From Primula veris (Eukaryota > Streptophyta > Magnoliopsida > Ericales > Primulaceae): 64,000 bases of DNA. Within the stretch, counting starts at the first letter, position 1. Each line of letters starts with the position of its first letter. The translations under genes and the position numbers were made by a program. Positions 11,765 through 40,683 of the stretch are shown piece by piece. Where the stretch lies: NCBI GenBank assembly GCA_963682055.1, contig OY821746.1, forward strand, positions 7,785,992 to 7,849,991. Reading direction: 5' to 3'. The notes beneath the pieces were generated by a model. The model did no database searches and was not told where the DNA came from. It saw only the letters and a program-made list of their open reading frames with translations.

Positions 11765-12600
11765 GTAAATTTTATTTATCAATTAATTTGCGGATACAAT
11801 TTCTGATAATTTCTAAAAAAAATATAGAAATGAAAGTCCTTTGATTCTCCTTTTCGAACAATTTGTGATGGCTCGAAATGTTGTTGTAGACTTTTTGATG
11901 AATTTTGTTGACTTTGCTCAAGTTGAGTAAAATTCTTCGGGTTTGATGAAGAACTTTGCAGTTTTGTTGATTTCGTTGATGATCTTGACGTTCTTTGGAT
12001 TTGGTGAAAAACTTGGAGATTTTGATCTAGAGAAACGTGTTTTTGCCTTTGTGTAGTCGTTCCTGAAGATCGAATGCCGGTTTGTTGTAGATTTCTTAGG
12101 TGGAGTTCTTCAGATTCAGTGAACAAATGTGAAGACTTTGATTTGCAGAAACATCTTGCTTATTGCTTGTAGCCGTTCCTGAAGATCGACTGACGGTTTG
12201 TTGTAGAAGTTCTTTAGATTTGGTGAAGAAGTTTGAAGACTTTGATTTGCAGAAACGTCTTGCTTATTGCTTGTAGTCGTTCCTAAAGATCGAATGACGG
12301 TTTGTTGTAGAAGTTCTTCAGATTTGGTGAAGAGCTTAAAGATTTTGATCCGTAGAAATACCTTGCTTGATGCTTTTAGACGTTCTTGAAGATCGAATGT
12401 CAAGTTTATTGAAGATTTGTTGCAGACTTTGAAGGTGTTCGTTGAGGCCGGAGTGTGCAGAGTTTCTCCTAGGAGTTGATCCCCTAACGTTTGTAGAGAA
12501 GTGGAGCTTATTCGCTGGCTTCTGTGGAGGAGTTTCTCTCTCTCCAGTATTCAATACTTTTTTGATTGTTAGAATTATGACACCCTCGTCCCTCTATTTA
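11765..12600 (-). repeat. ~115-bp tandem repeats behind a minus-strand TATA box
   Basis: Marker phrase GTTCCTGAAGATCG, with variants, recurs near 12058, 12176 and 12279, and more weakly near 12382 and 11980. The period is therefore roughly 100-118 bp. Read on the minus strand, TATAAATAG lies near 12590-12600, followed by a leader and overlapping open frames rich in Ser and Gln (11779-12554). The frames shift between repeats and match no family I recognise. It looks like a transposon end or retroelement leader that has expanded, but I cannot assign it. Confidence 0.45.
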
Positions 12601-13740
12601 TATCTTTTGTGGTGAGCTTTTAATTGCAAAAGTACCTCCCTAAGTTTCGGCTCATTATCATTTAGGACCAACACTTGTTATTTGATTTAAATTTAGTATT
12701 TGTGTTTTGAAAATATTTTAATGAGTTCTATAATTGTAAGAAACTCTTTGTTTGCTCCATATTAAATGAGTTTTAGCAAAATAAATACTTTTATTTTATT
12801 TTAATTTACTATATTAATTTTATGTGATAATAAATTATAATTTATTTTCTTTTAAATTACTAATAACTTCTTTTCTATTTAAATTTAGAGATTAGTAATC
12901 AATTTAATTTTGTTTAAAAGACATGTGGCGTATTTTTAATGACCGTAAATTTTACATGTCAACATGAATATGTTGTCATTTTCTTTTCGGATACTCATAC
13001 TATAGAATGCCATTAGTTGATGACAAAAGATAGAAGTCCATGTACCAAATCCATCAACACTATTAATGAACGTCAATCAAAATATGGTATACGATCCCTT
13101 ATAAAATTGAAGAGAAAACCGCGACAAATGATGTTGTTATAAATAGCCTTAGAAAACACGACGATCAATTAACTTAGGTCTTCTCTAACAAACTCATTGT
13201 ATAAATAATCTCAAGCAAATTTGGTTAGTACCGATAGTACAACTTTGATAGTTAGGCGTGAGCTTGATGATATGATAATTTTCAATAACTACGGCGGGTT
13301 TATCTATGTATATGAATCTTGAAATAGTTTTGGTATTTTGGTATTTTTCATGTGTGGACGGCTATGTTTGTCAACGTATTTTTTTTTGTCTAAAATCAAT
13401 TTAAATAAACTGCCAAAATCCTTATTTTGACTAAGATTCTGTAGCCTAAAAAGTTTCTTTCAAAATCTAAATGTCAACACCCACAAATTTAAAAATAAAT
13501 CAAATATAAAAAAATATATTGCCGAATCAACTAAATGTAAAACTCATTCGACCGTCAAAATTTAATTTCAATAAATTAAAACTTCGAACGAAAACTAATC
13601 AAGATTTTATATTTCATTACATTAAAACTCGGGACGAAATTGTCAAAAACCCACACCACACACGCACGGGGGTGTAGTGTATTACTAAAAGAAAGAAAAC
13701 CGATACTGAAAGAACAAACACGTCAATTCACAAACCAACT
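12600..13740. other. AT-rich intergenic DNA with a MITE relic
   Basis: No gene is seen. At about 13362-13530 the text (TGTTTGTCAACG, then runs of T, then CAGCCTAAAAA-like sequence) resembles a diverged copy of the Harbinger-like MITE at 18501-18724. The remainder carries no recognisable feature. Confidence 0.4.
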
Positions 13741-13844
13741 CACCTTATAAAAAAAGCATCCCAAAACTCTCCCTCCAAACAAACCCTACACTCACAACTC
13801 CCAATCATGGGCGGCTTAAAGAGAGATACATAACAACACAAGAA

Positions 13845-13877
13845 ATGGTGAAGTTTCTAAAGCCAAACAAGGCCTAA
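13845..13877 (+). pseudogene. Truncated RPL27 start, copy 1
   Basis: The frame encodes [10 protein letters not shown], identical to the first ten residues of the functional copy, then stops. The duplicated segment breaks inside codon 10-11. If transcription begins at the first promoter copy, this short frame would be translated upstream of the true start. Confidence 0.85.
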
Positions 13878-14087
13878 ATAATCAAAACTTTAATTTCCAT
13901 AAAATCAAACCTTCGGGATTAAATCGCCAAACACCCATATACATCAGGGTGTTTTAAATAATTACCCAAAAGGACAAACACATAAATTCACAAAATAACA
14001 CCTTATAAAAACACTCCCTCCAAACAAACCCTACATTTCTCACTCCCATTCAGCGGCGGCTTAAAAATAAAAAAAAAACAGAAAAAA

Positions 14088-14183
14088 ATGGTGCCAAGGC
14101 CTAATAATCAAAACTTTAATTTCCATAAAATCAAACCCTCGGGACTAAATCGCCAAACACCCATATACCTCATGGTGCTTTAA
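14088..14183 (+). pseudogene. Truncated RPL27 start, copy 2
   Basis: Here the start codon is kept but codons 3-8 or so are deleted (MVPRPNNQ...). A 31-residue frame follows, running through duplicated non-coding sequence to a stop at 14181. It bears no similarity to L27 beyond MV and is a by-product of the promoter triplication. Confidence 0.75.
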
Positions 14184-14229
14184 ATAATTACCCAAAAGGA
14201 CAAACACGTAAATTCACAAAATAACACCT

Positions 14230-14259
14230 TATAAAAACACTCCCTCCAAACAAACCCTA
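14230..14259 (+). promoter_or_regulatory. RPL27 proximal promoter: TATA and telo-box
   Basis: TATAAAAA at 14230-14237 is followed by AAACCCTA at 14252-14259, 50 bases before the start codon. The order and spacing are the same in the two upstream duplicate copies. Confidence 0.75.
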
Positions 14260-14308
14260 CATTTCTCATTCCCAATCAGAGGCGGCTTAAAAATAAATAC
14301 ACAAAAAA

Positions 14309-17300
14309 ATGGTGAAGTTTCTAAAGCCAAACAAAGCCGTAATAGTCCTACAAGGGAAATATGCAGGTCGTAAAGCGGTAATCGTCCGTCAATTTGACGA
14401 CGGAACACGTGACCGACCTTACGGACACTGTTTAGTCGCCGGAATATCAAAATATCCTAAAAAAGTCATACGAAAAGACTCTGCTAAAAAAACGGCCAAA
14501 AAATCACGTGTCAAGGCCTTTATTAAATTCGTTAATTATACTCATATTATGCCCACTAGGTATGGTTTTTCCCTTATCATTTAAAATATTCACTTCTAGT
14601 TCATTACTGTTTTAAATGTTTATGATTTTGTGTTTCATTAGTTGAATTTTTTGTCATAAATTAAGTTGGTTAATTAATTTATACCCATATTATGCCCACT
14701 AGGTATGGTTTTTCCCTTATCATTTAAAATATTCACTTCTAGTTCATTACTGTTTTAAATGTTTATGATTTTGTGTTTCATTAGTTGTTTTTTTGTCATA
14801 AATTAAGTTGGTTAATTAATTTATACTCATATTATGCCCACTAGGTATGGTTTTTCCCTTATCATTTAAAATATTCACTTCTAGTTCATTACTGTTTTAA
14901 ATGTTTATGATTTTGTGTTTCATTAGTTGAATTTTTTGTCATAAATTAAGTTGGTTAATTAATTTATACCCATATTATGCCCACTAGGTATGGTTTTTCC
15001 CTTATCATTTAAAATATTCACTTCTAGTTCATTACTGTTTTAAATGTTTATGATTTTGTGTTTCATTAGTTGAATTTTTTGTCATAAATTAAGTTGGTTA
15101 ATTAATTTATGCCCATATTATGCCCACTAGGTATGGTTTTTCCCTTATCATTTAAAATATTCACTTCTAGTTCATTACTGTTTTAAATGTTTATGATTTT
15201 GTGTTTCATTAGTTGGTTTTTTTGTCATAAATTAAGTTGGTTAATTAATTTATACCCATATTATGCCCACTAGGTATGGTTTTTCCCTTATCATTTAAAA
15301 TATTCACTTTAGTTCATTACTGTTTTAAATGTTTATGATTTTGTGTTTCATTAGTTGGTTTTTTTGTCATAAATTAAGTTGGTTAATTAATTTATACCCA
15401 TATTATGCCCACTAGGTATGGTTTTTCCCTTATCATTTAAAATATTCACTTCTAGTTCATTACTGTTTTAAATGTTTATGATTTTGTGTTTCATTAGTTG
15501 GTTTTTTTGTCATAAATTAAGTTGGTTAATTAATTTATACCCATATTATGCCCACTAGGTATGGCTTTTCCCTTATCATTTAAAATATTCACTTCTAGTT
15601 CATTACTGTTTTAAATGTTTATGATTTTGTGTGTCATTAGTTGAATTTTTTGTCATAAATTAAGGTGGTTAATTAATTTATACCCATATTATGCCCACTA
15701 GGTATGGTTTTTCCCTTATCATTTAAAATATTCACTTCTAGTTCATTACTGTTTTAAATGTTTATGATTTTGTGTTTCATTAGTTGAATTTTTTGTCATA
15801 AATTAAGTTGGTTAATTAATTTATACCCATATTATGTCCACTAGGTATGGTTTTGCGTTATGATTAAAATATTCACTTCTAGTTCATTACTGTTTTAAAT
15901 GTTTATGATTTTGTGTTTCATTAGTTGATTTTTTTGTCATAAATTAAGTTGGTTAATTAATTTATACCCATATTATGTCCACTAGGTATGGTTTTGCGTT
16001 ATGATTAAAATATTCACTTCTAGTTCATTACTGTTTTAAATGTTTATGATTTTATGTTTCATTAGTTGAATTTTTTGTCATAAATTAAGTTGGTTAATTA
16101 ATTTATACCCATATTATGCCCACTAGGTATGGTTTTTCCCTTATCATTTAAAATATTCACTTCTAGTTCATTACTGTTTTAAATGTTTATGATTTTGTGT
16201 TTCATTAGTTGTTTTTTTGTCATAAATTAAGTTGGTTAATTAATTTATACCCATATTATGCCCACTAGGTATGGTTTTTCCCTTATCATTTAAAATATTC
16301 ACTTCTAGTTCATTACTGTTTTAAATGTTTATGATTTTGTGTTTCATTAGTTGAATTTTTTGTCATAAATTAAGGTGGTTAATTAATTTATACCCATATT
16401 ATGCCCACTAGGTATGGTTTTTCCCTTATCATTTAAAATATTCACTTCTAGTTCATTACTGTTTTAAATGTTTATGATTTTGTGTTTCATTAGTTGAATT
16501 TTTTGTCATAAATTAAGGTGGTTAATTAATTTATACCCATATTATGCCCACTAGGTATGGTTTTTCCCTTATCATTTAAAATATTCACTTCTAGTTCATT
16601 ACTGTTTTAAATGTTTATGATTTTGTGTTTCATTAGTTGAATTTTTTGTCATAAATTAAGGTGGTTAATTAATTTATACCCATATTATGCCCACTAGGTA
16701 TGGTTTTTCCCTTATCATTTAAAATATTCACTTCTAGTTCATTACTGTTTTAAATGTTTATGATTTTGTGTTTCATTAGTTGAATTTTTTGTCATAAATT
16801 AAGTTGGTTAATTAATTTATACCCATATTATGTCCACTAGGTATGGTTTTGCGTTATGATTAAAATATTCACTTCTAGTTCATTACTGTTTTAAATGTTT
16901 ATGATTTTGTGTTTCATTAGTTGATTTTTTTGTCATAAATTAAGTTGGTTAATTAATTTATACCCATATTATGTCCACTAGGTATGGTTTTGCGTTATGA
17001 TTAAAATATTCACTTCTAGTTCATTACTGTTTTAAATGTTTATGATTTTATGTTTCACTAGTTGAATTTTTTGTCATAAATTAAGTTGGTTAATTAATTT
17101 ATACCCATATTATGCCCACTAGGTATGGTTTTTCCCTTATCATTTAAAATATTCACTTCTAGTTCATTACTGTTTTAAATGTTTATGATTTTGTGTTTCA
17201 TTAGTTGTTTTTTTGTCATAAATTAAGTTGGTTAATTAATTTATACCCATATTATGCCCACTAGGTATGGTTTTTCCCTTATCATTTAAAATATTCACTT

Positions 17301-20183
17301 CTAGTTCATTACTGTTTTAAATGTTTATGATTTTGTGTTTCATTAGTTGAATTTTTTGTCATAAATTAAGTTGGTTAATTAATTTATGCCCATATTATGC
17401 CCACTAGGTATGGTTTTTCCCTTATCATTTAAAATATTCACTTCTAGTTCATTACTGTTTTAAATGTTTATGATTTTGTGTTTCATTAGTTGGTTTTTTT
17501 GTCATAAATTAAGTTGGTTAATTAATTTATACCCATATTATGCCCACTAGGTATGGTTTTTCCCTTATCATTTAAAATATTCACTTCTAGTTCATTACTG
17601 TTTTAAATGTTTATGATTTTGTGTTTCATTAGTTGGTTTTTTTGTCATAAATTAAGTTGGTTAATTAATTTATACCCATATTATGCCCACTAGGTATGGT
17701 TTTTCCCTTATCATTTAAAATATTCACTTCTAGTTCATTACTGTTTTAAATGTTTATGATTTTGTGTTTCATTAGTTGGTTTTTTTGTCATAAATTAAGT
17801 TGGTTAATTAATTTATACCCATATTATGCCCACTAGGTATGGCTTTTCCCTTATCATTTAAAATATTCACTTCTAGTTCATTACTGTTTTAAATGTTTAT
17901 GATTTTGTGTGTCATTAGTTGAATTTTTTGTCATAAATTAAGGTGGTTAATTAATTTATACCCATATTATGCCCACTAGGTATGGTTTTTCCCTTATCAT
18001 TTAAAATATTCACTTCTAGTTCATTACTGTTTTAAATGTTTATGATTTTGTGTTTCATTAGTTGAATTTTTTGTCATAAATTAAGGTGGTTAATTAATTT
18101 ATACCCATATTATGCCCACTAGGTATGGTTTTTCCCTTATCATTTAAAATATTCACTTCTAGTTCATTACTGTTTTAAATGTTTATGATTTTGTGTTTCA
18201 TTAGTTGAATTTTTTGTCATAAATTAAGTTGGTTAATTAATTTATACCCATATTATGTCCACTAGGTATGGTTTTGCGTTATGATTAAAATATTCACTTC
18301 TAGTTCATTACTGTTTTAAATGTTTATGATTTTGTGTTTCATTAGTTGATTTTTTTGTCATAAATTAAGTTGGTTAATTAATTTATACCCATATTATGCC
18401 CACTAGGTATGGTTTTGCGTTACGATTATAGTATTCAATGCTTCATTAGGGTTAAACATATTTATGGTTTTGTGCTTCATTAGTGGAATTTTTGGCCTCT
18501 GGTTTTGTTTGGTAACAGATTTTTTTTGTCCGAAATCAGATTTAAAAATTTGTTTTAAGAATCCCACTGAAAATCTGGATTTTAAAAATGTAGTTTTTTC
18601 AGCCTAAAAATCAGTTTTTTTTAGAAGCTAAATAATCTGATTGGCCAAACACTCCAAACTCCCACAGATTTTTAAAATCAAAAATCCAAAAATGAACTAC
18701 AAAAATCTGTTGCCAAACGGATCCTCTATTTTGGCATAAATTAAGGTGGTTAACTATACGCATATTATCCCGAATTAGGTATGGTTTTGTGTTATGATTA
18801 AAATATTCAGTGCTTCATTAAGGTTTAAAATGTTTATGATTTTGTGCTTCATTAGTGGAATTTTAATTTTTTTGGCCCCTCTATTTTGGCATAAATTAAA
18901 GTTTGCGTTACAATTAAAATATTCAGTGCTTCATCAGGGTTTAAAATGTTTACGAATTTGCGCTTCATTAGTGAAATTTTTGGTCTCTATACGCATGTTA
19001 TGCCGACTAGGTCTGATTTTTTGTTATGATTAAAATATTCAGTGCTTACTTAGGGTTTAATATGCTTATGATTTTGTGCTTTGTTAGTGGGATTTTTGGC
19101 CTCTATTTTGGCATAAATTAAGGAGTCACGATCCTCTGTCCCCTCTTTCGTGCCCCTTCTGTGCCTCTTTGACAGTCTAACCCAAAAAAATTATTTTAAA
19201 AAATTAATAAAAATCTACAATTACTATTCGTTATGTATTAATACATTCCTGTTCTCATTTTTAATAGAAAGTCATACATCACTTTATGAGTAATAAATTT
19301 ACAAAAGTAGTGTAAAATAAATATTTCATCTTAACAAAATCGTTTAGACCAAGATTATGCTCATTTTTTATGAAATTTGTCTATTATACATTGCAAAAGT
19401 TTATAACGTAAGAGAAAAGTTGTAAAAAAATGATTTTTGCGTTATGATTAAAATATTCATTGCTTCATTAGTGGGATTTTTGGCCTCTATTTTGGCATAA
19501 ATTAAGGTGGTTAACTACACGCATGTTATGCCGACTAGGTATGATTTTGCGTTATGATTAAAACATTCAGTGCTTCATTAGTGGTGGTTAACTACACGCA
19601 TGTTAAGCCGACTAGGTATGATTTTGCATTACGATTAAAATATTCAGTGCTTCATTAGTAAAAATTTTGGCCTCTATTTTGGCATAAATTAAGGTGGTTA
19701 ACTATAGGCATGTTACGCTGACTAGTTATGGCTTTGCGTTATGCTTAAAATATTCAGTACTTCATTAGGGTTTTGTTTATGTTTTTTAGTGGAATTTTGC
19801 CCTCTATTTATTAAATCTGATTATGGACAAATATTCAGTGCTTCATTAGTGGAATTTTTGGCCTCTATTTTGGCATAAATTAAGGTGGTTAACTATACGC
19901 ATGTTATGCCGACTAGGTATGATTTTGCGTTATGATTAAAATATTCACTGCTTCATTAGTGGAATTTCTGGCCTCTATTTTGTCATTAATTAAGGTGGTT
20001 AACCATACGCATGTTATGCCAAATAGGTACACGATGGACGTTGATTTGAAGGATGTGGTGAGTGGTGATGTGTTGGGGAGTAAGGATAAGAAGGTTACAG
20101 CGGCCAAGGAGATTAAAGCGAGGTTCGAGGAGCGGTTTAAGAGTGGCAAGAACCGGTGGTTCTTTTCCAAGCTCCGGTTTTAA
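14309..20183 (+). CDS. RPL27: 60S ribosomal protein L27 (eL27), 2 exons
   Basis: Exon 1 is 14309-14559 and exon 2 is 20027-20183, giving 408 bases and exactly 135 residues, the usual plant eL27 length. The KOW-type N-terminus ([20 protein letters not shown]), [33 protein letters not shown] and the terminal [15 protein letters not shown] are all conserved. The protein is a structural component of the large cytosolic ribosomal subunit. The donor is ACTAG|GTATGG and the acceptor AAATAG|GTACAC, and codon 84 (Arg) is split after its second base. The acceptor has almost no polypyrimidine tract. Intron retention would terminate seven codons into the intron, at 14582-14584. The intron is 5467 bp, mostly a tandem array that repeats the exon 1 end and donor; see the findings. 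Confidence 0.95.
14527..18440 (+). repeat. 27-unit ~142-bp tandem array carrying exon end plus 5' splice site
   Basis: The donor context CCACTAGGTATGG occurs at the authentic site (GT at 14560) and then 27 more times. GT positions begin 14703, 14845, 14988, 15131 and continue to 18266 and 18407. Spacing is 141-143 bp throughout. Each unit contains ATTAAGTTGGTTAATTAATT, then ATACCCATATTATGCCCAC, a near copy of the last ~45 coding bases of exon 1, then intron sequence. Variant bases show higher-order structure: the paired 141-bp units at 15986/16127 recur 996 bp later at 16982/17123. The block around 15131-15702 recurs 2277 bp later at 17408-17980. Confidence 0.95.
18501..18724. mobile_element. 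224-bp Harbinger/Tourist-like MITE inside an array unit
   Basis: The ends are GGTTTTGTTTGGTAACAGAT and the reverse complement of GGATCCGTTTGGCAACAGAT. The 3-bp direct repeat TCT flanks it (18498-18500 and 18725-18727). Neighbouring array units read GGCCTCTATTTTGGCAT without interruption, which supplies the empty site directly. There is no coding sequence. Confidence 0.8.
18725..20026 (+). repeat. Diverged array units before RPL27 exon 2
   Basis: This region has older, shorter and irregular copies of the array module, marked by GGCCTCTATTTTGGCATAAA and TTCAGTGCTTCATTAG. Donor-like AG|GT sites persist at 18779, 19011, 19539, 19616 and 19917. One copy near 19724 has mutated to AG|TT. About 330 bases (19121-19440) of unrelated sequence interrupt the series. 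The last copy ends directly at exon 2, and there GTTAACCATACGCATGTTAT still reads as V-N-H-T-H-V, like the VNYTHI of exon 1. Confidence 0.85.
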
Positions 20184-22165
20184 ATCAACACTGGTTTGCT
20201 GGTTCTGGATTGATATTAGTACCTTGTTTTTTATTTGGTGGAGAATTTTATCATGTTATCAGACTAAGTATTTTGTTTATGATTTGGTTCTAAATCAACA
20301 CTGTTTCTACTGGTTTGATGATGGTACCGGTTTTGTTTTATTTTATTTTGGTTAACGTTATGATGCTATCAGAACAAGTATTTTTCTTATGGTTTGGAGT
20401 TTGAGACTATGTGTTGAAGTTTATAATTAGTTATGGATTTTTTGGCTTTATTTATAATTTTGTGTTGGGATTAAAATATTTAGTGCTTCATTAGGGTTTA
20501 ATGTGTGGGAATATTTGGCCTCTATCTAGAATGTGATTGATTGGAATTTTGTACCACACAGTAACAAAATAACGTAAATATGAATATAAAAAAATTCTTG
20601 ATGAGAAAAAAACACTGAGGAATCTGGTTTGCTTATGAGGTTTGGTTTATCAGACTTGTTGTCTTTTAAAAAAAATTGAGGAGTATTTTTTTTATAGTTT
20701 TTTTGTTTGATAATTTGGTTATAGTTGTAGTTTGAGACTAAGGAGATTTGCTATGTGTTTGACGTGTTAATTAGTTATGTATTTATTTGTCTAATCTATG
20801 ATTTTGCGCTATGATTTAATCATTTGCTTTTGTTATGCTTTAAGTAGCCGATGAGACTTGTGTGATTTTACTGAATGTGATGATTTTAATTATGGTCGAT
20901 GAGGTTTTGGTTTCTCAGTCTTATAGATTTTTTTTATGAGAAATGATGTTATCAGATTATGCGTTTTTCTTATGTTATTGTTGGATTTTGGGACTATGGA
21001 GGTTTTCTGAATTATGGATATTTGCTATGTGTTGATGTCTTAATTAATTATGGGTTTTAATTTATGATTTTTTGGCATGATTTAGTGTTTTGGTTGTTTA
21101 CGCAGCTGATGAAGTGTATTATCCCGTATATTGATAGAAGTTAACATTTTCCATCATTTAATTACTAATCAAAATAGACATATCACGAGAAGTTGGTACC
21201 TGTTCGGAGTTAAATATCTCTAGATATTCTTTTTACGCCATGTTTCAGTGCTTAGATTGTGGTTTATAGTTCCCATATTTACAGAAATTAGATTTCTGGC
21301 ATGTATTGTAGGCAGAATTGTCCAGTTACAGGAATTTTGTCCCCAGTGGTTGGTATGTTTTGAAGTTTTGATTAGTTGTGAGTTTGAGTTATGATTTTCT
21401 GCTATGATATGATTTAAGTATTTAATTATCCATTATGGTTTAAGGAGCTGATGATGTGTGTGTGTGATTTGAGCCCCTATCTTGACAGGATTTGCATTAT
21501 CGGCTTGTGATTATGTTAATAACATTTTAATAAATATCAAGCTCCTTTCTTAAGATTTGGAGATCAAATTTAGCTCTTTAAGTACATAGTTTGTCTTCAT
21601 TTTGTGTTGAGTGCTCGTACTCTGGAAAAATGTTTACCCTGAGACCTTTTTTTTATTTTTTTTGTTAAATTTGTTATCGACTGTTGACAGAGCGCTTTTT
21701 TCTTAATTTCTTTTGGGATATAGTGTTTGAGATTTTGGATCTTTTCTGTGTATGACACGATTCTGTATGGTTAGAACTATTTGAATTTTGGTTGATTATG
21801 ATGATTGTTATTCCCAATGGAAAGACTACGTTGTTGCAACACACATAGGCCATAGCAATTTACTAAGAGAAGTCTCATTGTGTGTTTTTAAGTCATCAAT
21901 TTACAATTTCATGACACTTGTCCCTGCAGAAATAAAAATTTCCAGTACCTCTGAGCGAACTTTCTTTGATTCTATTAAGTGCTCGTTTTGCTTGTTGTAT
22001 AATGTTCTGTAGGATCTAGATTCTGTTGTCTTTTGGTTGATAAAGAAGAGTTTGAAGTTTCTTTTAAATGTGCCTTTTTTTCGTGGTATAGATTCTATAG
22101 AATAGTGTTGCGATATATAGTAGTGTTAGTATCCGTTGTCATGTCATATGTTGTTTTCTTTAATC
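20184..22165. other. RPL27 3' flank and intergenic DNA
   Basis: No gene is seen. At about 20448-20526 the phrases GATTAAAATATTTAGTGCTT and TTTGGCCTCTAT form a copy of the intron array module lying downstream of the stop codon. Further weak echoes (ATGATTTTGCGCTATGATTT near 20801) occur. The rest is T-rich sequence with short non-conserved open frames. Confidence 0.5.
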
Positions 22166-22168
22166 ATT

Positions 22169-23034
22169 TTAGTTAAATAACAAGTATACTTTTGGATTTT
22201 AAAAATAAGTATACGTTTGTTTCAATTGTTAGGGATGGAGTTTCTTATGACGTTTATGCTTGTTGGGTTTGTTATTATATTCTTAACTTCTCTGAAATGT
22301 TGGTTAAGTTTGTATTGCTTTCATCAGTGTTTATTGTTGCATTACTTTGGTGTGAGATTAGTTCTAAGAAGTTAATCTCTGACAGAGGGGTGTGCATCTG
22401 CTAATAAAATGTGGTTGTTTTAGCTATATTTTATACCAAGCATCAAGTACATTGGAGTCGTTTGCATTATAGTTCTGTGTAGCTGCCTCAGTGGAAGTTT
22501 AGTTGTGGAGTATATGTTATTTTTTCTTGAATAACAGGGAATTTATACGAGTCATGGTTAGTAAAATTTGTATCATATCTAGTCTAATCTCAACAAATTA
22601 ATCTTTTAGTTAAATAACAAGTATACTGTTGTTTCAACTGTTAGGGATAGAGTTTTTTACGACGTTTATCCTTGTTTTGTTTGTTATTATAATCTCATCC
22701 TCTCTGAAATGTTGGTTAAGTTTGTATTATTGTATTTCTTTCTGGTCACTGTTGTTTTTCATCAGTGTTTATTGTTGTACTACTATGGTGTGCGATTAAT
22801 TCTGAAGAGTTAAGCGCTATCTGCTAAAAAATATGGTTGTTTTTGCTATATTTTATACTAAGCATGAATTACATGGGGATCGTTTGCATTATAGTTCTGG
22901 GTGTAGCTGCCTCAGGGGAAGTTTAGTTGTGGTGATATGTTACTGTATTTTTTTCCCTGAGTAACAGGGAATTTATATACGAGTCATGGTTAGTAGAATT
23001 GATAGTGCATCTACTATCTAGTCTAATCTCAACA
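22169..23034. repeat. ~430-bp tandem duplication
   Basis: Copy A (about 22169-22594) and copy B (about 22604-23034) both start TTTAGTTAAATAACAAGTAT and both end TCTAGTCTAATCTCAACAA. Small indels separate them. No reading frame is conserved between the copies, so neither appears to encode protein. Confidence 0.8.
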
Positions 23035-34648: not shown

Positions 34649-37600
34649 ATGTCTGGCAATAACCGATTTGACACTCCATCGTCTCGACCCCCCCACGTTC
34701 TTGGGATGCCAAGAACGCTTTCTTTTGATGAGACCCCTAGGACCACATCCACCAGGGAGCCCGTTCCCCTGACCGCAACAGCTCCCGCACCCCGATCGCG
34801 GGCCGAGCTGACAGAGATGATGATCGATATTCACCAAAAAGAGCTTGTCGCTCTTGCGGCCCAGAAAGCCTTGATAGCCTCGCTGATGGAGCCGGAACCC
34901 GAGCCCGCTCAAGGCGCGAGCCAAGACAAATCGGTTCCCGTCCCCGTTAAAAGCGTGATGTCCAGGTTGGGACCCCTCCGACGACCCCCCCTAGAGACTC
35001 CCAGGGAGCCGGCTAGGGGTGCGGAGTCGGAGCATTCCCAAGAAGGAAATTCTCGCCGCGATAACGAGCGGAGTATACATTCGCAGCTCCGTTGGCAGGA
35101 TGGTAGTCGGGACTCAAGGCCAGAATCTAGTCATGCCCAAACCGACAAGCCACCTCGGACACGGAGACGTGGCCGACGCGGACGGCACGATGCAGCTGGT
35201 GAGGCAGCTTTGAAAATCGTGGCCTCTACCCGCAGCACCCCGTTCTCGGACGAAATTGAATACAGTGTCCCCCCTCGAAACTTTATCGCCCCTATCCTCC
35301 AAACCTTCAATGCGGACTCTGATCCAGAGGCCCATCTCCGACACTACCGATACCAGATGAACCATTGGTCGCACCTTGACCAGTTAATGTGCAGGTGCTT
35401 TCCCGCCAGCCTGGGAAGGCTCGCTAGTAAATGGTTCCAGTCCCTGCCCGTTAACTCTATCCACTGTTGGGACGATCTAGCTTATGACTTTGCGCACCGG
35501 TTCATAAACTTGAAAGAGAGAGCTGCCCAGCCGGAGCAACTCTATCAAGTGAGGGTCCAATCTAAAGAGACCCTTGAGAACTATGATAGTCGGTTTTGGC
35601 TGAAGCATGCCGAATGCGCGGACTGTCCCGACTCCACCGCCATAGCTGCCTTTAGGCAAAACATGGTAGTTGGGAGCAGGATCCGAAACGAGATGATCGC
35701 GACCCCACCCAACTCTGTTCCTCAACTCAGGTCCCTCATAAAACAGCATATCGACATTGAGAAGGACATGAGGTCATCCAGGGCAACACGTTCGGTAGCC
35801 CTTATCGACCAGCCAAGGGACCGGTTCGTCGCAACGAGCCCTCGAAGGAACCGGCCCATAGCGGAAAGGATGGAGCGGCCACGAACGGGAAGAAATCCGC
35901 AACCGGCCCCTAAAAGAAGAAAAGAGGATCCCCGACCGGGGCATCAAACACCTGTCGCCTCGGGGTCGGGCGCTGCCTATTCCACCACCTTTCGCCTACC
36001 TCTCGTCGACCTTCTTAACAAGATTGAGAACGAGCCTTTCTTCTCTTGGCCTCTCCCACTACGGAACGAGCCGGCCCCAGGGCCTAACGACAAAATCTGT
36101 GAATATCACAGGGGTCGTGGCCATCACACCAACGAGTGCCATGGTCTGAAGGCCAGGCTCGAGGGATGGGTCCGGGATGGCCTAATGGATAAATATGTCA
36201 AATCACGAAGAGAACCCGACCGAGATGGAGAAGGGGTTGATGAGAGGCAGCGGGACCTCCCCCCACCGGTGATGATCTGTCATGTCATTCACTCTGGGCC
36301 CAAAAGGTCAATCCAGAATGGGGCAGAAAGAACCTCAGCACGGGAAGCATTGATGAAGCAGTACGTCTGCCTCGCAGAAAGCTCAAGCCCTCAGAAAAAG
36401 TATAAGCGCAACTCTAAGCCGGATGTAAGCTTCACTGACTTCGACCTGGTGGGGGTGGACGTGCCCCACACTGATGCCCTCGTTATCTCGGCACAGATAG
36501 GCCTATGCGCAGTAGGACGGATCCTCGTTGATCAAGGAGCGTCGGTCAATATACTCTTTGAAGACCTCTTTCGAAAGATGGGACTCAAAGAGGAACAGTT
36601 GGAAACCGACGTCCCACCCCTGTACGGATTCAACTCGGAGGCGGTCCGGCCCAAAGGAAACATAACCTTGCCAGTGAAAACCGGCACGAAAGTTATGTAC
36701 GTGGAGTTCACGGTAGTGAATGTCCCCTCTGTTTACAACGTGATATTAGGGCGACCGTGGCTCCATGGAGTAGATGGAATCTCCTCCACCTTACACCAAA
36801 AGGTTAAATATCCAACTGATTCTGGTGTGGAAACCATCTCAGGAAATCAGAAAGTCTCACGCAGCTGTGCCATGGCCGTGTATTCCGGCAAAGAGATGAT
36901 GCCGGCCCAAAGTGCCATGAACATCGAGGCAGAGGACCCTAAGCTGCTGAGGGAAATAAACAAGAAGATGGGGCCTGAGGCCGAAGACAAGGTGGAGGAG
37001 GGACTGCTGAAAATCCAAATCCCGGGGTATGACGAGGACCACTTTTTTATGGTGGGGGCAAAGCTTACCAAACCAGAGGTCACCGACCTCGTCGAACTCC
37101 TTATCCAACACCTCGACAATTTCGCATGGGGTCCAAGCGAGATGCCAGGCATCAGTTCCGACCTCGCCTGCCACCGATTAAATGTCAGCCCGGATGCCAA
37201 GCCCGTGATGCAAAAGGGGCGCCGTGTCAGTCCAGAGCATGCCGATGCCATAAACGAGGAAGTAGAGAAGCTTCTGCTGGCCGGGGCCATCAGGGAGATT
37301 TATTACCCTAGATGGCTCGCCAATCCCGTAGTGGTCCCCAAAAAGAACGGAAAGTTGAGGGTGTGCATCGATTATACGAGCCTCAACAAGGCCTGTCCAA
37401 AGGATCCTTTCCCCTTGCCCAAAATCGATCAAATAGTGGACTCTACGGCCGGGGCCGCCAGAATGAGCTTCCTGGATGCCTGCTCCGGCTACCATCAAAT
37501 ACCTATGTCGGAGGTCGACCAAGAAAAAACTGCCTTCATCACCCCAAGGGGAAATTACTGCTACAAGGTGATGCCCTTCGGACTCAAGAACGCCGGGGCG

Positions 37601-40228
37601 ACCTATCAGAGAATGGTTACCAAGATATTCTCTAAGAACATAGGCCGAACCATGGAGGTCTATATTGACGATATGGTGGTAAAAAGCACCCAGGAGAGGG
37701 ACCACCTATCCGACCTAAGGGAGGTGTTCGAAACAATACGAAGGCATGACCTGAAGCTGAATGCCTCTAAATGTGCTTTCGGGGTAGGCGCCGGCAAATT
37801 CCTGGGGTTCATGGTGACCCACCGCGGCATCGAAGCGAACCCGTCCCAGATCTCTGCCTTGAAAAATTTGAAAACACCTGAGAAGAGAAGGGACATACAA
37901 AAGCTAGCCGGGATGGCCGCCGCCCTCAACCGGTTTATTGCCCGGTTCGGGGACCGATGCAAGCCGTTCTTTACGGCCTTAAAAGCCCAGAAGAAATTCG
38001 AATGGAACGATGAATGCCGGCGTGCGTTCACCGAGCTGGCTGACTATCTCGGAAGTCCGCCTCTTCTAACTAAGCCGGATCCAGGCGATGTCCTTACCCT
38101 ATACCTCGCCGTGTCCGAGATAGCCGTCAGCGCCGTCCTCATCAAGGAAATCGACAGGGAGCAAAGACCTATCTATTACGTGAGCAAAACTCTCCTCGAT
38201 GCCGAGGCTAGGTATATGCCTTTGGAAAAACTCGTCCTAGCCCTCGTCGTGGCCTCACGAAAACTTGCTCACTATTTCTCTGCACACAGCATTGTGGTCT
38301 ATACAGACCAGCCCGTGCGAGAAATACTCCAAAAAGGGGATCTCTCTCGACGAATGATGAAGTGGGCCTGCCACTTGAACGCCTACGACATCAGCTATGC
38401 GCCGCGAACTTCCGTCAAAGGACAGGCCCTGGCCGACTTCGTGGCAGAATTCACTGGGACGACTCAATGCCCCGACGTCACAGGTCGTGCCCCCGAGGCC
38501 TGGACCTTGCATGCGGATGGAGCCGCCAATAAGAAAGGGTCCGGCCTTGGCGTCGTGCTCCGATCTCCCCAGGGGGATGTGATCGAGAAGTCAATCCAGC
38601 TTGGATTCCGAGCCACGAATAACGAGGCCGAATATGAGGCCGTGATCGCCGGCTTAAAAATGGCCCGAAGCCTCGGAATAAAAAAGATACTGGTGCATAC
38701 GGACTCCCAATTAGTCAGCAGCCAGATCAGTGGTGAATTTCAGACGAAGGACGAAAGAATGGCCAGCTACGTGGCTATCGCTTCCGGAATACTCCAAAGC
38801 TTCGAATGCCAAGAAATCGTCAACATCAATAGAAACGAGAACACCCACGCCGATGCACTAGCGACCCTAGCCTCGGTCATGAGTGATAAGAAAGAGAGAG
38901 TCATCACCATAGAATATGTCCCTTCGCCTAGCATTGAGGCTAAGGCAACAATTAACATGGTGACTGACCTCCCGCCGGAGCCAAGCTGGATGGACCCCAT
39001 AATCGAATACCATCGCTCCGGAGATCTTCCCAAGGACAAGAAAGAGGCCGAGAAAATAAGAAGAACGGCACTAGGATTCTGGATAGCTCCCAACGACAAG
39101 CTCTATAAAAGATCGTTCTCTGGCCCCTACTTACTCTGCGTCCACCCCGACATGGTGGTAAGGGTCATGGAAGAAATTCACGAAGGAACGTGTGGGAGCC
39201 ATACCGGGGGCAGATCGCTGGCCAACCGAGCCTTGACCCACGGATATTGGTGGGCCCTCATGCAGAAGGACGCCAAAGCTTTCGTACTCAGATGCGAGAA
39301 GTGTCAGAGGTACGCGCCGATACCCCATGCCCCGGCGCAAAAAATGAGCAGCGTGACCTCGCCCTGGCCCTTTGCACAGTGGGGCATGGATATCGTCGGA
39401 CCATTTCCCGTGGCCCCGGGGGGGAAGAAGTTCCTCCTCATGGTCACCGATTACTTCTCAAAGTGGGTGGAGGCCGTGGCCTTAGCGAAAATCACAGAGG
39501 CCGAAGTGATACGTTTCCTCTGGAGAGACGTGATCACCAGATTCGGAATCCCCTACTCAATCGTTGCGGACAATGGGGGACAGTTCACCGGGGTCAAATT
39601 AAAAGCGATGTATGCGAAGTATCACATCAAGAACTACTATTCGACCCCATCGTATCCCCAATGCAACGGACAAGCGGAGGTGTCAAATAAGACCGTGCTT
39701 GACGGAATCAAGAAGAGGCTAGACGAGTCCAAAGGACGATGGGCTGCAGAGCTGCATCACGTCCTTTGGGCCTACCGAACGACGAGAAGACGGGGCACTC
39801 AACAGACACCCTATAGCCTTACTTACGGAATGGAAGCCATCATCCCGTTAGAAATCGGGCTTCCTTCTCTGAGGACGGACATGGTGGAAAACGGGCTTAA
39901 TGAAAAGATGATGGGGCTAGAGCTGGACTACGCCGAAGAAAGAAGGGAGGTTGCGGCCATCCGTAACGCCGAATATAAAAACGAACTGGGGCGTTCTTAT
40001 AACAAAAGAGTTAACGCCAGACGTTTCCAAGACGAAGACCTAGTGTTACGAAGAGTAAACAACAACACCAGGGTACAGTCCGACGGCAAGCTATGCCCCA
40101 ATTGGGAAGGCCCCTATCGAATCCTTGGTGCAGTAGGGAACGGGGCCTACCTGTTGGGTCGTCTTCCCAATGATGTCCCGGTCGACCGACCTTGGAACGT
40201 CAACAACCTGAGGAAGTACTATCAATAG
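34649..40228 (+). CDS. Gag-Pol polyprotein, 1859 residues, Tat type
   Basis: One uninterrupted frame. Gag occupies about residues 190-400 (LRHYRYQMNHWSHLD, SKWFQSLP, AYDFAHRF). A zinc-knuckle-like CEYHRGRGHHTNECHGLK lies at about 485. The aspartic protease motif is VDQGASVNILF (Asp about 627). Reverse transcriptase spans about 850-1010 with LRVCIDYTSLN, MPFGLKNAGATYQ and the catalytic YIDDMVVKS near 1005. The RT-linked RNase H is followed by a second RNase H (LHADGAANKKGSG, NNEAEYEAV, VHTDSQ) from about 1287. Integrase begins with an HHCC zinc module (EGTCGSH ... CEKCQRY, about 1510) and has a DDE core: GMDIVGPF, VADNGGQF, GQAEVSNK. The protein performs packaging, reverse transcription and integration of the element. 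The protease reads DQG where DSG/DTG is commonest. No frameshift or stop is seen. Confidence 0.95.
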   Translation: MSGNNRFDTPSSRPPHVLGMPRTLSFDETPRTTSTREPVPLTATAPAPRSRAELTEMMIDIHQKELVALAAQKALIASLMEPEPEPAQGASQDKSVPVPVKSVMSRLGPLRRPPLETPREPARGAESEHSQEGNSRRDNERSIHSQLRWQDGSRDSRPESSHAQTDKPPRTRRRGRRGRHDAAGEAALKIVASTRSTPFSDEIEYSVPPRNFIAPILQTFNADSDPEAHLRHYRYQMNHWSHLDQLMCRCFPASLGRLASKWFQSLPVNSIHCWDDLAYDFAHRFINLKERAAQPEQLYQVRVQSKETLENYDSRFWLKHAECADCPDSTAIAAFRQNMVVGSRIRNEMIATPPNSVPQLRSLIKQHIDIEKDMRSSRATRSVALIDQPRDRFVATSPRRNRPIAERMERPRTGRNPQPAPKRRKEDPRPGHQTPVASGSGAAYSTTFRLPLVDLLNKIENEPFFSWPLPLRNEPAPGPNDKICEYHRGRGHHTNECHGLKARLEGWVRDGLMDKYVKSRREPDRDGEGVDERQRDLPPPVMICHVIHSGPKRSIQNGAERTSAREALMKQYVCLAESSSPQKKYKRNSKPDVSFTDFDLVGVDVPHTDALVISAQIGLCAVGRILVDQGASVNILFEDLFRKMGLKEEQLETDVPPLYGFNSEAVRPKGNITLPVKTGTKVMYVEFTVVNVPSVYNVILGRPWLHGVDGISSTLHQKVKYPTDSGVETISGNQKVSRSCAMAVYSGKEMMPAQSAMNIEAEDPKLLREINKKMGPEAEDKVEEGLLKIQIPGYDEDHFFMVGAKLTKPEVTDLVELLIQHLDNFAWGPSEMPGISSDLACHRLNVSPDAKPVMQKGRRVSPEHADAINEEVEKLLLAGAIREIYYPRWLANPVVVPKKNGKLRVCIDYTSLNKACPKDPFPLPKIDQIVDSTAGAARMSFLDACSGYHQIPMSEVDQEKTAFITPRGNYCYKVMPFGLKNAGATYQRMVTKIFSKNIGRTMEVYIDDMVVKSTQERDHLSDLREVFETIRRHDLKLNASKCAFGVGAGKFLGFMVTHRGIEANPSQISALKNLKTPEKRRDIQKLAGMAAALNRFIARFGDRCKPFFTALKAQKKFEWNDECRRAFTELADYLGSPPLLTKPDPGDVLTLYLAVSEIAVSAVLIKEIDREQRPIYYVSKTLLDAEARYMPLEKLVLALVVASRKLAHYFSAHSIVVYTDQPVREILQKGDLSRRMMKWACHLNAYDISYAPRTSVKGQALADFVAEFTGTTQCPDVTGRAPEAWTLHADGAANKKGSGLGVVLRSPQGDVIEKSIQLGFRATNNEAEYEAVIAGLKMARSLGIKKILVHTDSQLVSSQISGEFQTKDERMASYVAIASGILQSFECQEIVNINRNENTHADALATLASVMSDKKERVITIEYVPSPSIEAKATINMVTDLPPEPSWMDPIIEYHRSGDLPKDKKEAEKIRRTALGFWIAPNDKLYKRSFSGPYLLCVHPDMVVRVMEEIHEGTCGSHTGGRSLANRALTHGYWWALMQKDAKAFVLRCEKCQRYAPIPHAPAQKMSSVTSPWPFAQWGMDIVGPFPVAPGGKKFLLMVTDYFSKWVEAVALAKITEAEVIRFLWRDVITRFGIPYSIVADNGGQFTGVKLKAMYAKYHIKNYYSTPSYPQCNGQAEVSNKTVLDGIKKRLDESKGRWAAELHHVLWAYRTTRRRGTQQTPYSLTYGMEAIIPLEIGLPSLRTDMVENGLNEKMMGLELDYAEERREVAAIRNAEYKNELGRSYNKRVNARRFQDEDLVLRRVNNNTRVQSDGKLCPNWEGPYRILGAVGNGAYLLGRLPNDVPVDRPWNVNNLRKYYQ

Positions 40229-40325
40229 GGCTCCGCTTTTAAGGCTCCGTTTTTGCATTTTGATGTAAATATGAAGACGATGTATTTATGCCTGCGGGCT
40301 TTATAAATGAAAACTGTTACTCGTG

Positions 40326-40683
40326 TTTATTTGAATTTTTCAGTTCATTTAAATTTTCTCTAAGTGTTTCAGAACACGAGCCTATACGGCACCCCGGTTC
40401 ATATTTACTTGAATTTTTCAGTTCATTTAAATTTTCTCTAAGTGTTTCAGAACACGAGCCTATACGGCACCCCGGTTCATGTTTACTTGAATTTTTCAGT
40501 TCATTTAAATTTTCTCTAAGTGTTTCAGAACACGAGCCTATACGGCACCCCGGTTCATGTTTACTTGAATTTTTCAGTTCATTTAAATTTTCTCTAAGTG
40601 TTTCAGAACACGAGCCTATACGGCACCCCGGTTCATGTTTACTTGAATTTTTCAGTTCATTTAAATTCTCTAAGTGTTTCTAC
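40326..40683 (+). repeat. 78-bp tandem repeats downstream of pol
   Basis: CCTATACGGCACCCCGGTTC recurs at 40381, 40459, 40537 and 40615, so the period is exactly 78. Alternating sequence is TTTTTCAGTTCATTTAAATT. Because 78 is divisible by three an open frame survives across the array, but it has only repeat-encoded content. Such arrays are frequent between pol and the 3' LTR in Tat elements. Confidence 0.9.

Follow-up and report, generated by a model that had tools for sequence, protein, structure and literature searches.

The RPL27 locus and its intron

The window, that is, the whole stretch of DNA analyzed here (64,000 nucleotides; G000:C7:7785992-7849991), contains a gene for ribosomal protein eL27 (RPL27). 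The genome searched along with it comprised 436.5 Mb in 34 contigs. The gene has the following parts.

14309..14559, + strand: RPL27 (eL27) exon 1, codons 1 to 83 and the first two bases of codon 84; final bases ACTAG
14560..20026, + strand: RPL27 intron, 5467 nt, phase 2, GTATGG...AATAG
20027..20183, + strand: RPL27 exon 2, remainder of codon 84 through the stop codon TAA
20184..20389, + strand: 3' untranslated region (3'UTR), delimited by means of a retrocopy (see below); holds a tandem duplication of ~100 bp

The intron lies within the Arg84 codon (AG|G). Exon 1 ends with GCCCACTAG|GTATGG, the last exonic base being 14559, and exon 2 begins with GTACACG at 20027, directly preceded by GCCAAATAG. 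These coordinates and boundary letters are the same as those given in an earlier reading made from the sequence alone (here called the sequence-only reading). The joined coding sequence specifies a complete plant eL27 of 135 amino acids. Its product aligns without gaps and over the full length with PDB chain 7qiw_b (60S ribosomal protein L27; E = 3.2e-77), is 91% identical over the full length to Cornus florida eL27, and matches Pfam Ribosomal_L27e (E = 2.1e-33). With a gapless 135-amino-acid eL27, the protein is left unchanged by the intron, which if read in frame from exon 1 reaches a stop within at most 10 codons. The GC content is 26.6% in the intron versus 43.1% in the coding sequence. 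A TATAAAA motif is located at 14230, ~20 nt before the point where the match to the retrocopy starts (~14249).

We compared the gene with an intact paralog on contig C3. The differences at first, second, and third codon positions numbered 5, 1, and 45 in codons 1 to 84 and 9, 4, and 22 from codon 85 to the stop, a distribution that indicates strong purifying constraint on both exons relative to the paralog. Third codon positions are A/C-rich in exon 1 and G/T-rich in exon 2 (Fisher P = 2e-5), and the C3 paralog has a similar, weaker trend (P = 0.009).

Both ends of the intron are copies of one coding block

A short coding segment is present at both ends of the intron.

14522..14559, + strand: the block as it stands in exon 1, from which the donor context derives; encodes 14 amino acids
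19986..20026, + strand: acceptor-forming copy of the block; gap-free against the uninterrupted exon of the C3 paralog, 31/41 identical

The 38 nt that end exon 1 and the 38 nt before exon 2 are identical, in register, at 29 of 38 positions (binomial P = 7e-10, or 5e-9 without the AG). Among 58,303 other plus-strand 38-mers in the window outside the locus, the best match to the block had 23 identities, and the reverse-strand maximum was likewise 23. Read in frame, the copy before exon 2 encodes 12 amino acids homologous to 12 amino acids of exon 1. A consensus of the block, written out by hand from the degenerate units described below, scored 127 against exon 1, with a maximum of 101 in 1,000 shuffles. 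The homology that the sequence-only reading had proposed between the two sites therefore stands well above background.

We then aligned the acceptor block plus exon 2 to the single exon of the C3 paralog and obtained one gap-free alignment of 197 nt. The block (31/41 identities) is as similar to the paralog as exon 2 is (121/156). Similarity stops abruptly at 19986; the sequence just upstream has 3 to 7 identities in 15 and scored at the null level in a separate comparison, and a longer coding origin 5' of the block was rejected on this basis. The continuity of block and exon 2 is the appearance that the gene would be expected to have had before any intron. Donor GT and acceptor AG are thus copies of one exonic AGGT with coding similarity flanking it, and the earlier claim that both splice sites descend from one coding AGGT segment is borne out by the 29/38 identities together with this continuity. 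Because both intron ends copy one short coding piece, the intron was probably born by its duplication.

The acceptor lacks a pyrimidine tract, as had been pointed out from the sequence, since only 10 of the 20 positions before the AG are pyrimidines. YTNAY is a branch-point motif. The acceptor block contains such a branch-like motif 24 nt before its end, with no AG in between, and in five blocks inspected the motif lies 21 to 29 nt before the end, again with no intervening AG.

Codon 84 is uninterrupted at the other RPL27 loci

Searching the genome returned nine matches, which we assigned to five loci, one being the window gene and the others lying on C3, C12, and C11 and at 19.245 Mb on C7. 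Codon 84 is continuous in all four of the others. The C3 locus (L011; G000:C3:14391500-14401400) is the intact paralog, and its codon 84 context is ACT CGC TAT, without AGGT. The C12 locus is a broken copy that lacks the codon 53 intron of C3, and the C11 locus is old and broken. In rice, RPL27.3, the one listed of two copies, is given as a single exon without an intron (PMC4995216). An intron at codon 84 is thus lacking in 4/4 of the other loci found in the genome and in this rice gene. The absence in paralogs could reflect loss. Intron counts for RPL27 of Arabidopsis or potato were not found in the portions of the literature that were searched.

No eL27-encoding DNA was confirmed in a viral contig collection (12 and 600 pattern stretches examined) or in a genome contig collection (186 stretches examined), and positions 18700 to 20200 had no match in a plasmid collection. 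The C3 paralog has its own intron of 2983 nt after codon 53, where the window gene has none; its donor (AAAAAG|GTCTTT) is unusual, and its acceptor is TATGTAG|GTC.

The intron is filled with repeat units carrying AG|GT

Between the two exons lie repeat units of different ages and one insertion.

14532..18493, + strand: recent array of ~143-bp units, each with a block containing AG|GT followed by a non-exonic part
18507..18718, no strand assigned: MITE-like insertion inside an intron unit; inverted terminal repeats of 23 nt, 87% complementary
18749..20026, + strand: old degenerate units with junctions spaced 77 to 528 bp; their blocks encode 16 amino acids

A scan that allowed 11 mismatches in 34 located 35 blocks from exon 1 to exon 2 inclusive, about thirty of them in addition to the two ends; more decayed copies may be missed because of this limit. 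AG|GT is present in 34/35 blocks (the exception, at 19725, reads AG|TT), and AG|GTATG is present in 32/35. The recent array consists of 27 whole units with a mean pairwise identity of 97%, in line with the earlier suggestion that the module was later amplified. The right half of the array unit, CATATTATGCCCACTAG|GTATGG, is the same as that of exon 1. The coding-derived portion of a unit is the block only (~38 to 42 nt); we refer to the non-exonic remainder as N. Unit types in the array (14674 to 18493) follow a higher-order pattern, e.g., runs 2,3,4,3,5 and 2,3,3,3,5.

The intron therefore has the makeup of a dual-specific array, with AG|GT in the units and both splice sites being repeat copies. 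As 32/33 internal blocks have AG|GT, stepwise splicing may be possible. We tentatively raise the idea, doubtful at present, of a splicing ratchet in which any unit used as an acceptor would rebuild a donor, leading to stepwise intron removal. If this is true, the array could grow and shrink without harm to the mRNA, a satellite could expand in a ribosomal-protein gene, and the intron would have been both born and kept by one coding AGGT.

In the older units, the non-exonic part matches repeats downstream of the gene

Related sequences occur 3' of the gene.

20405..20560, + strand: downstream repeat R1; matches N of the older units at 74/86 aligned positions, z = 7.4
20738..21510, + strand: R2 to R4, more diverged relatives of R1, 3' of the gene

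Compared with exon 2, N scored 47, where the null mean was 51; against exon 1 it was also at the null level, and N was ruled out as a copy of either exon. The body of the intron is thus not derived from a duplicated exon, as the Rogers model would have it, and N of the older units instead matches a downstream repeat. For the comparisons with R1 to R4, an N consensus was assembled by eye from several units. Besides R1, N matches R4 (z = 5.1) and, marginally, R2 (z = 3.1); the value for R3 is within the null (z = 2.4). One actual older unit compared with R1 gave a z of 10.9. The array unit matches N (z = 13.6), and directly against R1 to R4 it gave nothing beyond the null (z = 1.3 to 1.9).

R1 to R4 are related to one another in all six pairs (z = 3.5 to 8.3), and R1 is positioned downstream of the poly(A) site. 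The idea that R1 to R4 are complete units in decay was rejected, since the left portions are not block-like (P ≥ 0.34 in global and ≥ 0.13 in local alignment). Pairs of R1 to R4 agree at 79 to 85% of aligned positions, with many gaps, compared with 87% between the array and the older intron units. This somewhat greater divergence suggests that N moved from downstream DNA into the intron, and DNA downstream of the gene is probably its source.

Tandem duplication has also affected the two ends of the transcribed region.

13709..14314, + strand: gene-start fossils; 5'UTR and up to ten codons, in tandem

The RPL27 5' region is present three times in tandem, and two of these copies are fossils that include a gene start; one of them reads ATGGTGAAGTTTCTAAAGCCAAACAAGGCC and then TAA. 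With the gene start duplicated upstream and the 3'UTR duplicated as well, the whole locus appears to have a tendency to duplicate. In the 3'UTR duplication (about 20184 to 20397), copy one looks like the intron block together with the beginning of N. The resemblance of 20221 to 20285 to the block (P ≤ 0.0005 versus shuffles; 0.2% of window background) runs against the origin proposed below.

A retrocopy with joined exons and its relative age

The locus at 19.245 Mb on C7 (near C7:19,245,625) joins the two exons exactly, reading ACCCATATTATGCCCACTAG|GTACACG (junction, ACTAG|GTACACG). In a BLAST search with positions 12000 to 23000 of the window, its homology was restricted to the transcript (~14249 to 20389) and the gene-start fossils. 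A 16-bp target-site duplication, AAGTTACTTTTATTTA, occurs exactly twice in 9.9 kb, just outside both ends of the copy. The transcript-limited, intronless homology and the flanking direct repeat identify the locus as a retroposed transcript. Deletions and an insertion have since disrupted it, and codons 59 to 75 are missing. At the 3' end there is only AAA before the repeat and no clear poly(A) tail. The joined exons bear on whether the window gene might be dead or otherwise spliced, the similarity at the acceptor being a by-product of the array abutting exon 2. The acceptor is indeed weak by consensus, with its 10/20 pyrimidines, but the strong constraint on both exons and the retrocopy make this explanation barely credible.

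We used the retrocopy for relative dating. In the untranslated regions, it and the gene differ at 27/282 sites (9.6%). At third codon positions, the retrocopy differs from the gene at 9/116 sites (7.8%) and exon 1 differs from the block consensus at 5/12 (Fisher P = 0.0038), a test that assumes an even mutation rate and uses 12 sites that had been noticed before testing. Over all positions, the differences are 7/38 for the block and 44/629 for the retrocopy (P = 0.020). The consensus represents four of the seven degenerate blocks (18749, 19510, 19697, and 19888) and excludes those at 18982, 19587, and 19998; taken by itself, the acceptor block (19998) differs from exon 1 at 9/38 positions and at 5/12 third positions. 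As the retrocopy is less diverged than the duplicated block, its transcript probably came from an intron-bearing gene, and the block duplication looks older than the retrocopy. One informative site goes against this reading: the retrocopy has ACC, like the array, and exon 1 has ACT. In the resulting order of events, the block would have been duplicated and the intron born first; the degenerate units, the retrocopy, and finally the 143-bp array would have followed.

A proposed origin of the intron

We consider it fairly likely that the intron was gained at codon 84 by local duplication of codons ~70 to 84 combined with inserted non-coding DNA. The ancestral gene would have been uninterrupted at codon 84. 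A local rearrangement would have duplicated codons ~70 to 84, containing ACTAGGTA, and placed non-coding DNA, probably from 3' of the gene, between both copies. The GT of the first copy would have become the donor, and the second copy, fused to codons 84 to 135, would have supplied the branch-like motif (GTTAAC) and the AG of the acceptor. The predicted AG|GT-to-AG|GT splicing would have restored the original protein, so that the change could be tolerated. Later tandem duplications of block plus N may account for the old degenerate units, with the 143-bp array stemming from a recent round. One possible path is a tandem duplication that began at codon ~70 and reached DNA 3' of the gene, after which the first copy lost the stretch between GGTA and N. 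Because N is unlike exon 2, a one-step tandem duplication of coding DNA is insufficient.

The intron could instead have been present at codon 84 before the block was duplicated. A tandem duplication crossing the boundary of exon 1 and the intron would have carried the block and donor into the intron; a deletion between the AGGTA of the last unit and that at the junction of the old acceptor and exon 2 would then have swapped the original acceptor for a block copy. The recent array shows that boundary-crossing duplications occur at the locus, the five bases AGGTA shared by the unit and the exon 2 junction could mediate such a deletion, and N resembles ordinary non-coding DNA. This history requires an extra, exactly placed deletion, however, and no trace of an older acceptor was seen; the 4/4 other genomic loci and the rice gene also have no intron at this position. 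We regard a preexisting intron as unlikely.

Still less probable is a fusion of adjacent RPL27 copies, with exon 1 from the upstream copy, the block and exon 2 from the downstream copy, and the DNA between them as the intron. The AGGT of each copy would act as donor or acceptor, and the match of N to DNA 3' of the gene would be expected for the 3' flank of the upstream copy. The differences in the block are mainly at third positions (5/7), and the third-position contrast between the exons would fit as well. The latter is weakened as proof of a fusion, as the same trend exists in C3, and no remnant of a second exon 2 was found in the window (BLAST, E = 1e-3). Even under fusion the splice sites would come from one AGGT, and the size of the duplication would be the main difference from the favored local duplication of codons ~70 to 84.

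Relation to known cases of intron gain

Duplication of an AGGT-bearing exon segment as a source of introns was modeled by Rogers in 1989 and is exemplified by ATP2A1 (Hellsten 2011, as cited in PMC4974935). As in these cases, the RPL27 donor and acceptor both trace back to a single coding AGGT, the encoded protein stays the same, and a branch-like motif and AG arrive with the copied block. In contrast, the RPL27 units are mostly non-exonic, and the 5.5-kb intron has been amplified into an array. The sequence-only reading had invoked this AGGT tandem-duplication model; its account of the splice sites holds, whereas the sequence after the donor, which the simple model would have as an exon 2 copy, is not one. 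With splice sites that fit and a body that does not, we do not file the intron as a strict member of the class. It appears to work like a Rogers-model intron without being a purely exonic duplication.

A new intron in a potato RdRp gene (PMC4974935) is likewise from a plant, stems from a duplication across non-exonic and exonic DNA, and has a formerly exonic donor. There, according to that account, a parental intron supplied the acceptor, the tract, and the branch site, and splicing is proven by RNA reads; in RPL27 the acceptor itself is coding derived, and splicing is predicted. In the fission yeast genes SPOG_01682 and SOCG_00815 (PMC3629103), tandem exon-like copies form the intron and the splice sites lie in the repeats, as in RPL27. 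The proto-site reported there is AGGC and the repeats are coding and 24 nt long, in contrast to dozens of mixed units of ~143 bp. The UBC and VCX3A arrays (PMC10809524) similarly have tandem units with AG|GT that can be a potential donor or acceptor, and expansion of such units is a proposed route to new introns. The UBC units are described as protein coding with sites shown to be used, while those of RPL27 are intronic with predicted sites. By the accounts cited, the fission yeast exon-repeat introns and the UBC and VCX3A AGGT arrays are nearest in kind to the structure predicted here. Drosophila cases support the duplication route, but their authors found no surviving similarity in the surrounding duplicated sequence (PMC2891723). 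We found no comparable satellite-filled intron in the open-licence literature, most of it judged by title or abstract.

Few gained introns are reported to have an identified source sequence (PMC4974935). In RPL27 the coding segment that served as source can still be read at either end of the intron. The genome also contains an intact uninterrupted paralog and a joined-exon retrocopy, and the recent array represents renewed duplication beside the exon edge. Together, these open intron gain by tandem duplication to direct testing in a plant. They also suggest that a coding AGGT and nearby AT-rich DNA can jointly supply intron signals.

Other features of the window

An open reading frame of 1859 amino acids without stops, for an LTR-retrotransposon polyprotein, lies at 34649 to 40228 in a GC-rich block and had 13 matches at 24 to 40% identity. 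A 78-bp tandem repeat follows at 40324 to 40680.
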